Shown here: positions 8,223 through 17,475 of the stretch, one piece after another
How the letters are laid out: the number at the start of each line of letters is the position of its first letter
Position numbering within the stretch: position 1 is the stretch's first letter
Virus record (IMG/VR): IMGVR_UViG_3300023281_001538
Coordinates: 1-20,764 of that record
DNA length: 20,764 nucleotides
From: a virus
Reading direction: 5' to 3' (one strand)
Made by a program: the position numbers and the translations under genes
The notes under the pieces: model-generated
What the model saw: only the letters and a program-made list of their open reading frames with translations
Told to the model about the DNA's origin: nothing
Database searches by the model: none

Positions 8223-9122
8223 ATGCAGAAGTCTTGCAAGATTTGCGGGGGTGACTTCCAGACGTGGGATAGCCGAACAAAGACGTGTGGGAACGATTCT
8301 TGTCTCCGCATTAGTCGAAGCTCTAGAAGCCGGGCCCCTTTCCCTGAACAGTTCCATGAACTGGAAGACCTTCCTAACTTATCGAAGCGTAAGCGTAAGC
8401 GCCCCTCGCTAAAGCGAGCATATAAGAAGGTGAATCCAGGTGAAATCATGGGGGTCATAGGGGATACCCACATGCCTTACGAGAAGGAGGGCTACCTGGA
8501 ATTCTGCCAAGAGACCTTCCAGAGCCAGGGCGTGACGCGAGTAATCCATGCGGGCGATCTTATGGACAACCATGCTCTAAGTTTCCACGACTCAGAGCCC
8601 TCCTTACGGGGAGCGGTGGGAGAGTATGAGGCGGTTCGCGAGCAGTTACAGCCGTGGTTTGATGCGTTCCCCAAGTTAGAGATAATCCGGGGCAACCACG
8701 ATAAGATACCTGCCAGGCAGTTAGCTAAGGCGGGTCTGGATCCTGATAAGTTCATGCGACCCATGGCAGAGGTATATGACTTTCCTCCCGGCTGGGTCGA
8801 GGTCGACAACGTCTTCAGTAACGGAGTACTCTACCACCATGGAGAGACTGCTGTAGGTATTGGGGGATTCCGTAAAGACAGTCGAGATCGCATGTGTAAT
8901 ACGGTTACTGGTCACGTGCATAGCAACTTCGGCGTAAGCTACACCGCTACTGACCACCGGTTAGTATATGGCTGCGCTGTAGGCTGCGGAGTTGATAGCC
9001 GTTCTATGGCTTTTGTTTACGGTAAGAACTTCAAGTTGAAGCCTATTGTAGGTTGTGCAGTGATACTGGAAGACGGCACCCTGCCTGTATGCTTCCCGAT
9101 GCCTTTGGGGTCCAAGCCCTAG
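8223..9122 (+). CDS. Calcineurin-like metallophosphoesterase with N-terminal zinc finger
   Basis: A 299-aa protein. Residues 1-30 carry Cys5, Cys8, Cys22 and Cys27, a small zinc finger, followed by a very basic linker (SKRKRKRPSLKRAYKK) that could bind nucleic acid. The catalytic domain starts at about residue 73 and has every signature of the two-metal phosphoesterase fold: D81-T-H83, G-D112, G-N158-H159-D160, H205-H206-G-E and G-H231-V-H233. These residues bind Mn/Fe-type metal pairs and cleave phosphomonoesters or phosphodiesters. Substrate cannot be told; with the zinc finger and basic tract a nucleic acid is a reasonable guess. GAGGGGG directly upstream supports the ATG. The HslV-like gene follows after 18 bases. 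Confidence 0.88.
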   Translation: MQKSCKICGGDFQTWDSRTKTCGNDSCLRISRSSRSRAPFPEQFHELEDLPNLSKRKRKRPSLKRAYKKVNPGEIMGVIGDTHMPYEKEGYLEFCQETFQSQGVTRVIHAGDLMDNHALSFHDSEPSLRGAVGEYEAVREQLQPWFDAFPKLEIIRGNHDKIPARQLAKAGLDPDKFMRPMAEVYDFPPGWVEVDNVFSNGVLYHHGETAVGIGGFRKDSRDRMCNTVTGHVHSNFGVSYTATDHRLVYGCAVGCGVDSRSMAFVYGKNFKLKPIVGCAVILEDGTLPVCFPMPLGSKP

Positions 9123-9140: not shown

Positions 9141-9653
9141 ATGACATGTGGCATAGCAATACCGGTAGACGGAAAAGTGGTCCTAGCCTCAGGATCAAGG
9201 ATCCTAGCCGGTACGCATAAGATGCCCGACTCTAAGAAGATTCTTAAAATAGGCGCATTTACTGCAGTATCTGCGGGCATGCTCAAGGCTGAGAGACTCA
9301 GCTTGATACAGTTTTACGCCATATCTTCTCCAGCGCCTATCAGCTTTCCTCAGCTTATAGAGACTTGGGCTAATTCTTTAGTTGAGCTTAATATACCCTC
9401 TGAGGACGGTATAGAGTTTCTAGTGGCTGTAGGGGACTGTTTGTGGTTTGTGGACTCTGACGGAGTAGTAATGGAGCATAGCGAAGGCTTCCTTACGATA
9501 GGCTCTGGAGGAGACATGGCCAGAGGTTTCCTAGGTGCGTCCAAGAAGCCTAAGACAGTGGAGGAGGCTGAGAAATTAGCCTTGCGTTGCCTGAAGTATG
9601 TGTCATTACATATGGTATGCGAGGGTCCTCCCTTCGCAACGGAGGTAACATGA
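9141..9653 (+). CDS. HslV/proteasome-beta-like Ntn hydrolase
   Basis: A 170-aa protein, close to the ~175 residues of HslV. After Met removal Thr would be residue 1 (MTCGIAI), the position of the catalytic threonine. The strand pattern DGKVVLASGSR matches the HslV/proteasome segment that holds Asp17, and KKILKI matches the Lys33 region. The EFLVAVGDCLWFVDSDGVV, LTIGSGGDMARGF and VEEAEKLALRCLKYV segments follow the HslV order, including the GSGG turn with the active-site serine. Asp17, conserved in active subunits, is Gly here (ASGSR instead of ADSR/GDG), so activity is uncertain. No HslU or other ATPase gene is in the window; it might use host HslU or act alone. The stop overlaps the next start (ATGA). 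There is no clear Shine-Dalgarno sequence. Confidence 0.75.
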   Translation: MTCGIAIPVDGKVVLASGSRILAGTHKMPDSKKILKIGAFTAVSAGMLKAERLSLIQFYAISSPAPISFPQLIETWANSLVELNIPSEDGIEFLVAVGDCLWFVDSDGVVMEHSEGFLTIGSGGDMARGFLGASKKPKTVEEAEKLALRCLKYVSLHMVCEGPPFATEVT

Positions 9654-10075
9654 GCATTGAGACTTACCTAGAGAGCTTAGAGGAGCTAATAGACCCGAGT
9701 CAGGACCCTCTGATAACCATCGAGTCCTACCAGGCAGAGGCAATTACCGCTGCTGCAGATTCTTTGGCTTTCTGCAAAGCATTATTTGACATCTTCAAGC
9801 TGAATGGTATGCTGGATGAAGATGCTACTTTCGATCTGTATGTCCTAGAGACTTTGATCGATAATATGGTAGGAGAAGTTACAGCGGCGGCTCTATATCT
9901 CAAAGGGCAACCACCTGGCAGGAAAGTTAGTGAAGGATTGCGGAGCATTAGCAACGATATCCATCAACATAACTTATTAGCTAAAGAGGAAGATCGAGTT
10001 CCGCTTGCTGTAGAAGTAGGGTTTAGCAAGTTAGCAGAACATGTTGAATCTGCTAAAATCCACTTAGCTATATAG
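9650..10075 (+). CDS. Hypothetical helical protein (141 aa)
   Basis: A 141-aa, mostly helical, acidic protein with no recognised family. Helices are suggested at about 2-14, 23-50 (IESYQAEAITAAADSLAFCK), 60-85 and 95-140. There are no metal or catalytic motifs. The frame extends upstream to 9587, but ATG 9650 is chosen: GGAGG lies four bases before it and the ATG overlaps the TGA of the HslV-like gene, so the two are translationally coupled. It could be a partner or regulator of that protein, by position only. A terminator follows 10 bases after the stop. Confidence 0.72.
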   Translation: MSIETYLESLEELIDPSQDPLITIESYQAEAITAAADSLAFCKALFDIFKLNGMLDEDATFDLYVLETLIDNMVGEVTAAALYLKGQPPGRKVSEGLRSISNDIHQHNLLAKEEDRVPLAVEVGFSKLAEHVESAKIHLAI

Positions 10076-14999: not shown

Positions 15000-16655
15000 A
15001 TGTCAGACGAATGGACCAGTAAATCTTCCTTTTGGAACAGTAACTCTTCAGAGTCAATAAAAAAGGCTCGACTAAAGCAAGAAAAGCCAGATTACGGTTT
15101 CAAATCTTACTTCGACGACCCTTTTGCACCTATGAGTGCTATGGGTTATCAAGCTCGTCCGTACTTGGTACCCTTCGATACGCTGAAGAAGGTTCCACAG
15201 CAGTTATCGATCATTGCGTCTATAATCCAGACTCGCACCAACCAGATTGCATCTTTCTCAGTCCCTTATAGGAACTCTAAGTCCATTGGGTACGAGATCA
15301 AGCACAAGAATCCTGGTAGGCTGACGACTAAGGGCGAGCGCGACTTTATCCTAGAGTTAGAAAAGTTTGTTTTCAATTGCGGACAGCCTAACCCCAATCC
15401 CTTCGCCCAGCACCCTAGAGATGGCTTTGACCATTTCTTGAAGAAGGTTGTGCGCGACACCCTAATGTATGACCAAGTTTGCTTTGAAGTAGTACCTGAT
15501 AGAAGAGGTTTACCTTATGAATTCATGGCTGTTGACGCTTCAACAATACGCATCGCTGCTCCTAATACACTTGATACATATAAGTACAACGGGAACAGTG
15601 CCCTCGACAAGAACACCTTCGAGTCTATGGGTGATCCCTCCGAGTTTGGTTCCGGTAAATTCAACTATGTGCAGCTTATACAAGGGCAGATCCGAAACCT
15701 GTACACCAGGAACGAACTAGCTTTTGGAGTTAGAAATCCCCGTACGGACATCAACGTGTACGGCTACGGCTACTCAGAGTTAGAGCAGCTTACTCGAACA
15801 ATTACTGCAGCTATCTATGCAGAAGAGTTCAATATCCGTAACTTCTCTCAGGGTAGTTCTCCCAAGGGGATTCTGTCCTTCAAGGGCGATGCTATGGATA
15901 ATGATATGCTTGAGGACTTCAAGCGTAAGTGGAACCAGAACGTGGAGGGAGTTCATAACGCCTGGAAAACTCCTATCATCCAGTCTGAGACAGGTATCGA
16001 GTGGACGGATCTCCACCCCAATAATCGGGACATGGAGTATAATAGCTGGCTCGAATACCTAATTAAGCTTATTTGTGGTGTATTCCTCATAGACCCTGCT
16101 GAGGTAAACTTCGACCTTCACGGTGGAGTACAGCAGACTCCTTTGTTCGAATCGTCCCAGGAATGGAAACTTAAGGCTTCACGTGACCGTGGACTTAAGC
16201 CTCTTCTTAAGTTCCTGGCTAAGATGGTTAACGAGAACGTTGTACAGAAAATTGACGATAACTTTGTCTTCGACTTCGTAGGCCTTGATGAGCTTACTGA
16301 ACAAGAGAAGCATGAACTACGTAAGGAGCAGGTAGCTTCCTACATGACTCTAAACGAGATTCGTCGCGCAGAAGACCTTCCCGATATCGAAGACGGAGAC
16401 CGCGTACTTAACCCCACGTACCTCCAAGCTGTACAGCTTGAGCAACAGGCCAAGCAGCAAGAAGAGCAGATGGCTATGCAAGGTAGCGCTGCGGGTCAAG
16501 GTGGAGAAGAGGGTGGTGGAGGCGGTGAAGTACCGCCAGAAGAGGGTGCTGAAGAAGAGCCTAGTCCTCCTTACGTAGAAAACTTCACCAAGTCTCAGCG
16601 CACCTTTGAGATTAGTGACTTAGACGACTGGTTTGATGAGGATGCCGGCATATAA
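15000..16655 (+). CDS. Phage portal protein (HK97/SPP1-type fold)
   Basis: A 551-aa protein forming the dodecameric ring through which DNA enters and leaves the head. The segment PRTDINVYGYGYSELEQL, then AAIYAEEFNIRNFSQGSSPKGIL, is the typical core of tailed-phage portals (conserved YG.S.LE and N...F..G..P.G.L). The earlier YDQVCFEVVPDRRGLPYEFM and the clip/stem helices (EDFKRKWNQNVEGVHNAWK, then NFDLHGG) match the family order. The C-terminal ~75 residues are low complexity: Gln-rich (EQQAKQQEEQM), Gly/Glu-rich, then an acidic tail ending DLDDWFDEDAGI. Length is normal for the family. GAGGTAAC lies directly upstream and the previous stop is one base before the ATG. No terminase gene precedes it in this window, which is unusual. 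Confidence 0.9.
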   Translation: MSDEWTSKSSFWNSNSSESIKKARLKQEKPDYGFKSYFDDPFAPMSAMGYQARPYLVPFDTLKKVPQQLSIIASIIQTRTNQIASFSVPYRNSKSIGYEIKHKNPGRLTTKGERDFILELEKFVFNCGQPNPNPFAQHPRDGFDHFLKKVVRDTLMYDQVCFEVVPDRRGLPYEFMAVDASTIRIAAPNTLDTYKYNGNSALDKNTFESMGDPSEFGSGKFNYVQLIQGQIRNLYTRNELAFGVRNPRTDINVYGYGYSELEQLTRTITAAIYAEEFNIRNFSQGSSPKGILSFKGDAMDNDMLEDFKRKWNQNVEGVHNAWKTPIIQSETGIEWTDLHPNNRDMEYNSWLEYLIKLICGVFLIDPAEVNFDLHGGVQQTPLFESSQEWKLKASRDRGLKPLLKFLAKMVNENVVQKIDDNFVFDFVGLDELTEQEKHELRKEQVASYMTLNEIRRAEDLPDIEDGDRVLNPTYLQAVQLEQQAKQQEEQMAMQGSAAGQGGEEGGGGGEVPPEEGAEEEPSPPYVENFTKSQRTFEISDLDDWFDEDAGI

Positions 16656-17475
16656 GCTAGCCTACAAGTTAGACTTCCAGAGCCTTCCGATCTCAATAGA
16701 GAATGGGAAAGGCTCTAGTCGTCATTGGACAGACGAAGCCACAGGTGAAAAAGGTTCCACTAAGATGGAGTATCCGTATGGATACGTGCGAGGAACCTTA
16801 GGAACAGACGGAGACGCTGTAGATGTCTTTATTGGCCCTGATAAGAAGTCTCAAAAAGTTTTCATAGTTACCCAAATGAAGGCTCCTAAGTTTACAGAAG
16901 TGGACGAACAAAAGTGTATGCTTGGGTTCAATTCTTCTAAAGAAGCTAAAGATGCCTACACTCGACATTATGACTCTCCTAAGTTCTTTGGAAGCATGAT
17001 TGAAGTAGATATTGAAGAGTTTAAGGATAAACTTAAGAGCCAAAAAGGCAAACTTATAAAATCTTTGCTCAAAAAGTACCTATCTGCTAAACTAAGGGTA
17101 GACTATAGTCATGGAGATAGCTATATGAATAGCTTAGATATGTTAAAAGGTCTTTCTTCGGCGATGCGTACCGCTAAGGATTCCGTTGAAAAGGCTCTCA
17201 CTTCTAGAAGTGCAGTAGCTACATCCCGTAAGGTTGAGGAAGCTCCCGAAGCTACTACGGACAATATATTCGGTACAGGTGTTCCGCTTAGGGACGGTGA
17301 GAGAACGCCTTACGTCATGCGCAAGTCTGCAGTGGATTATGGTAACTACCGCCCTCAGGTCGAAGATACCGAATCCTGCAACGTATGTAAAACCCAGTTC
17401 AAGAAGAGTATGGGATGCCTACGCTGTAAGCATGTCAACTCTACTACAGAAGCCGCCCCACTGTGGAAGAGATAA
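16642..17475 (+). CDS. Inorganic-pyrophosphatase-like (InPase) polyvalent protein with C-terminal zinc ribbon
   Basis: A 277-aa protein. Residues about 16-135 are the small pyrophosphatase-like domain found in phage polyvalent proteins: ISIENGKGS, YPYGYVRGTLG, then DGDAVDVFIGP, in which Asp56, Asp58 and Asp61 form the DxDxxD metal-binding signature of inorganic pyrophosphatases, and a helical end (MIEVDIEEFKDKLKS). Residues 140-230 are helical and polar. Near the C-terminus CNVC and CLRC make a zinc ribbon. In polyvalent proteins such domains are thought to be packaged in the head and injected; that is established for some relatives and inferred here. The start overlaps the end of the portal gene; ATG 16636 and TTG 16633 are alternative starts. 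Confidence 0.75.
   Translation: MPAYKLAYKLDFQSLPISIENGKGSSRHWTDEATGEKGSTKMEYPYGYVRGTLGTDGDAVDVFIGPDKKSQKVFIVTQMKAPKFTEVDEQKCMLGFNSSKEAKDAYTRHYDSPKFFGSMIEVDIEEFKDKLKSQKGKLIKSLLKKYLSAKLRVDYSHGDSYMNSLDMLKGLSSAMRTAKDSVEKALTSRSAVATSRKVEEAPEATTDNIFGTGVPLRDGERTPYVMRKSAVDYGNYRPQVEDTESCNVCKTQFKKSMGCLRCKHVNSTTEAAPLWKR

Follow-up and report, generated by a model that had tools for sequence, protein, structure and literature searches.

The Proteasome-Like Gene Lies in a Three-Gene Cassette

The IMG/VR virus record IMGVR_UViG_3300023281_001538 is a fragment of 29,099 bases, and the stretch analyzed here covers its positions 1 to 20,764 (hereafter the window, to which coordinates refer unless another contig or phage is named). 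On the plus strand, an ORF at 9141 to 9653 starts with ATG, runs without interruption, and encodes 170 amino acids. Codon usage resembled that of the phage's other genes, with an LLR per codon of +0.13 in frame; the two alternative frames gave -0.34 and -0.60. Together with matches to PF00227 and PHROG 1040, an AlphaFold2 model, and structure matches, this identified a proteasome-like gene of the HslV/proteasome-beta fold. Upstream, and separated from it by 18 bases, an ORF at 8223 to 9122 (plus strand) encodes a metallophosphoesterase (PF00149, E 1e-7; PHROG 221, E 1e-42) with a Cys-rich, zinc-ribbon-like N-terminal segment. Downstream, a gene at 9650 to 10075 (plus strand), whose start overlaps the stop of the proteasome-like gene, encodes a small, predicted helical protein; ATG 9650, which is preceded by GGAGG, was chosen as its start. 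The single-sequence model of this small protein (pLDDT 49) was too poor for structure searching.

Elsewhere, the record encodes a portal closest to those of the SPO1 group (~42% identity), a head maturation protease (PHROG 1028), a scaffold, and a major capsid protein of the SU10 type. Given this separate maturation protease, scaffold, and capsid protein, a head maturation role for the proteasome-like protein was rejected, and PADLOC returned no match to an anti-phage defense module. At window positions 16633 to 17475, overlapping the end of the portal gene, lies a gene whose product contains an inorganic-pyrophosphatase-like domain of phages (PF18823, E 2e-36), a type that also occurs in head-associated proteins.

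The Window Protein Is a Member of the Phage Proteasome-Like Family

The 170-residue product scored 31.1 bits against Pfam PF00227 (Proteasome), above the curated cut-off of 22.4, and matched PHROG 1040, the "peptidase HslV family" (E 4e-8). Its AlphaFold2 prediction had a pLDDT of 81.5 and a pTM of 0.81, with residues 21 to 30 the weakest, and aligned with proteasome beta subunits, Anbu, and HslV at Z 19.7 to 21.9 (rmsd 2.1 to 2.6 over 161 to 170 residues), as well as with phage proteins that carry HslV or proteasome-subunit annotations. In many of the aligned proteasome beta chains, chain residue 1 was matched by residue 2 of the model, a Thr. A profile built from 71 phage sequences likewise matched HslV, BPH (the beta-proteobacterial proteasome homolog), and proteasome beta chains, position 2 again corresponding to chain residue 1 in many rows. 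By profile and predicted fold, the product is a homolog of the proteasome-beta/HslV type of Ntn hydrolase, in agreement with the initial annotation, which had called it HslV/proteasome-like and had proposed structure prediction as the check.

The HslV part of that name went too far. Scores against the HslV equivalog models TIGR03692 (13.1 bits; cut-off 157.75) and NF003964 (11.7 bits; cut-off 137) were far below threshold, hence the protein is not HslV proper, and a true HslV identity was rejected. HslV (ClpQ, the peptidase of HslUV) shares with it the fold and a compact subunit, and solved HslV chains are among the matches of the phage family profile; unlike HslV, the window protein has such low equivalog scores, lacks the Asp17 discussed below, and is encoded in a record, itself a fragment, without HslU. 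These comparisons bear on one of the functions initially suggested, an inhibitory or structural mimic that enters and poisons host HslV or proteasome rings. The fold is indeed that of ring-forming subunits, and a Thr-protease-like subunit with an incomplete triad could plausibly act as a poison. However, a score of 13 bits against the HslV equivalog makes a conserved ring interface unlikely, relatives at the same locus have a full triad, and HslU and HslV are both absent from the 29-kb record; we regard such a mimic as very improbable.

Phages commonly encode proteins of this kind: more than 400 relatives were matched in each of two IMG/VR scans, and one query matched 172 GenBank phage records, mostly T5-like. 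Examples in PHROG 1040 include Geobacillus virus E3 gp65 and proteins of Moorella phage MTATph1, T5-like phage Eps7, and Microbacterium phage Pumpernickel, which resemble the window protein in length, fold, N-terminal MT, Lys33, the GxG turn, phage setting, and, mostly, records lacking an ATPase partner; all carry Asp17, whereas the window protein has Gly and the longest branch. Phage proteasome homologs have already been published by Fuchs et al. 2021 (PMC8665760) as PPH and AAH, both of which are said there to share the catalytic triad. Like the window protein, these are phage-borne, group I proteasome-like proteins without a propeptide or an AAA+ partner (PMC8665760). PPH, however, has ~140 residues and lacks helix H2, while the window protein has 170 residues and its model contains both helix pairs (48 to 60 and 69 to 82 before the strand at 92 to 97, and 124 to 133 and 140 to 157 after it), which sets it apart from the PPH description. 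BPH has the same fold and no known unfoldase, and its structure 5ovs was a high match to the profile, but it is bacterial, has an intact triad, and shares low sequence identity.

The absence of an ATPase partner, noted initially for the window, extends to the whole 29-kb record, where no AAA_2 ATPase was matched, though a host may supply HslU. The record is itself a fragment and 17 of 18 other records carrying the family also lacked an AAA_2 match, so that this absence says little. The exception was the jumbo phage SCTP-2, in which the AAA_2 matches are distant from the proteasome-like gene. Nor did Fuchs et al. 2021 (PMC8665760) find AAA+ partners for phage proteasome homologs, and the lack of one is thus normal for the family.

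Gly Replaces the Triad Asp in an Otherwise Retained Active Site

The proteasome triad consists of Thr1, Lys33, and Asp/Glu17 (PMC4792962). With the Thr that follows the initiator Met numbered 1, the window protein reads T1 C2, A15 S16 G17 S18 R19, K31 K32, G45, and G120 S121 G122 G123. We compared these positions across 192 distinct phage homologs, drawn from named phages and from three viral-contig scans with alignments; the search patterns of those scans left out the Asp17 column. Thr1 (codon 9144 to 9146, plus strand), which should become the N-terminal nucleophile once Met is removed, occupies a column with T or S in all 192 sequences (S in two); the N-terminal Thr reported initially is therefore shared by its relatives. 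The catalytic Lys was also correctly recognized, being K in 192 of 192, although the residue equivalent to Lys33 is residue 32 (codon 9237 to 9239, plus strand). Gly45 (codon 9276 to 9278, plus strand), equivalent to Gly47 by alignment, is probably the oxyanion-hole Gly and is G in most homologs. The GSGG turn was found as described, its Ser121 (codon 9504 to 9506, plus strand) being equivalent to Ser129; at this column, 190 of the 192 homologs have S, C, or T.

In contrast, the Asp17 position is occupied by Gly (codon GGA, 9192 to 9194, plus strand). The N-terminal alignment is ungapped and places this Gly exactly on the family's Asp17, bearing out the initial reading of ASGSR; the column holds D in 191 homologs and G in one, the window protein. 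No acidic residue substituting for Asp17 was evident in the alignment. A compensated frameshift concealing a DSR motif was rejected, as the other two frames near 9165 to 9230, read by eye, do not contain one.

The loss of Asp17 accompanies a general divergence of the protein, which has nonetheless spared Thr1, Lys33, the oxyanion Gly, and GSGG. The window protein forms the longest end branch of the tree (2.81 versus a median of 0.79) and, of 24 highly conserved columns, deviates from the family in 7, as many as one other row, a pattern expected under relaxed or altered constraint. No close relative was recovered from IMG/VR by single-protein search, from GTDB species genomes, or from plasmids, and the nearest matches among GenBank phages were below 30% identity.

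The Gly17 finding rests on a single metagenomic sequence, and with no close relative in any of these four collections, the gene could be decaying, with a recent loss of Asp17 on its way out, or could carry a sequencing or assembly error. The sequence argues against both. Since GGA lies two substitutions from GAT and GAC, Gly17 is not explained by one wrong base in an Asp codon; GAA (Glu) would require one change, yet Glu occurs in no relative. The ORF is intact with normal codon usage, its stop is overlapped by the downstream gene, and the remaining active-site residues are in place. We therefore consider decay or error improbable.

The Cassette Recurs in Relatives That Keep the Triad Acid

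We scrutinized 32 records with related capsid proteins. Proteasome-like genes were present in three (G010, G013, and G034), always in the order metallophosphoesterase, proteasome-like gene, small protein; because G013 and G034 share identical ORFs here, the three records represent two lineages besides the window. In the corresponding contigs, the cassette spans 701 to 2602 of L426 and 1012 to 3114 of L427 and L428 (minus strand). The window's small protein is 34% identical over 111 residues to its counterpart at the same place in L426 (E 6e-16). The two syntenic relatives keep Lys33 and Asp17 (codons GAC and GAT), but at the GSG turn they carry GAG or GIG.

Across 61 records, a metallophosphoesterase lay within 1.5 kb of the proteasome-like gene on the same strand in seven, versus 1.3 expected under random placement, an expectation computed among the 30 records having a metallophosphoesterase; as the seven include two capsid-related records and mutually related contigs, the excess is suggestive and not a clean test. 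Same-strand neighbors of this kind occur in Ochrobactrum phage OC (W05, 97.9 to 99.0 kb) and in SCTP-2 (W12, 385.0 to 387.2 kb), and the neighboring metallophosphoesterases belong to different subfamilies. A functional link between the metallophosphoesterase and the proteasome-like gene is possible.

Contigs with related portals (L086 to L089) are short, and the proteasome-like gene was absent from them. In three of these, the portal gene (7947 to 10850 in L089; also L087 and L088) carries an in-frame insert of ~380 residues with intein-like ends (CFPAEALV ... VHN/C), probably a portal intein.

The Window Protein Is Probably Impaired as a Peptidase

Related phage proteins are most likely small Thr peptidases, probably homo-oligomeric, that would act without a phage AAA+ unfoldase. 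The window protein lacks a propeptide, and removal of the initiator Met would expose Thr1 directly. With no propeptide to cleave, loss of Asp17 need not stop maturation, but its effect on catalysis is expected to be severe. Substitution D17N strongly lowered activity of the yeast beta5 subunit, and E17A in Thermoplasma acidophilum blocked both autolysis and catalysis (PMC4792962). Given these effects, the presence of Asp17 in 191 of 192 homologs, and its retention in the syntenic relatives, peptidase activity of the Gly17 protein would be strongly impaired. We consider it most likely, on the strength of these comparisons, that the window protein is a fast-diverging and catalytically impaired member of the known phage proteasome-like family, in which the Thr1-Lys33-Asp17 triad has lost its acid but not Thr1 or Lys33, and the oxyanion Gly and GSGG are also kept. 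Such retention would be odd for a dead enzyme and counts against one. Slow residual activity might persist through the alpha-amine or the Thr1-Lys pair; failing that, the protein might be kept for a binding or structural role inside the cassette.

The rewired active site proposed initially would be a still-working peptidase or amidase in which an altered proton relay replaces Asp17. The relay would consist of the Thr1 alpha-amine, or of Lys32 held by the carbonyl of residue 19 with Ser16, Ser18, or water nearby. Retention of all other active-site residues is consistent with this, autolysis is not required where no propeptide exists, and the site tolerates losses, since yeast K33A with the propeptide supplied in trans kept ~17% activity (PMC4792962). 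Against it, no acidic replacement is evident and D17N by itself severely impairs the proteasome (PMC4792962), and we hold a working relay to be rather unlikely.

A further reading, which we hold to be rather unlikely, is a retained phage pseudo-proteasome subunit; having dropped the triad acid but neither Thr1 nor Lys33, it would work together with its two cassette neighbors in binding, in scaffolding, or as a slow covalent device, and not as a protease. On the reading that we favor, the window copy is probably a weak or inactive protease that may have acquired another role.

The protein is a real, well-defined oddity within a known family. Two things are new, a divergent member whose triad lacks its Asp and a metallophosphoesterase cassette that recurs; no paper describing either was found in the open-access literature. 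Relatives of the same gene order keep the triad acid that this natural copy lacks, and together they form a matched set for asking whether phages need the peptidase activity or the protein itself, and the recurring metallophosphoesterase neighbor offers a fresh lead on function.

Other Genomic Settings of the Family

Other settings of the gene were also observed. In a freshwater phage clade (L004, 6001 to 6537; L005, L015, and L062), it lies directly 3' of a large portal-looking gene, a slot that is a frequent site of head maturation proteases. In the large phages L003, L173, L180, L181, L183, L184, and L265, it sits amid nucleotide-metabolism genes, including those for thymidylate synthase, DHFR, dCMP deaminase, MazG, and ribonucleotide reductase. 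A ribonucleotide reductase gene is also present in the window, 1.4 kb upstream of the proteasome-like gene, as is a tRNA-Arg (TCT) gene at 1150 to 1226 on the minus strand.
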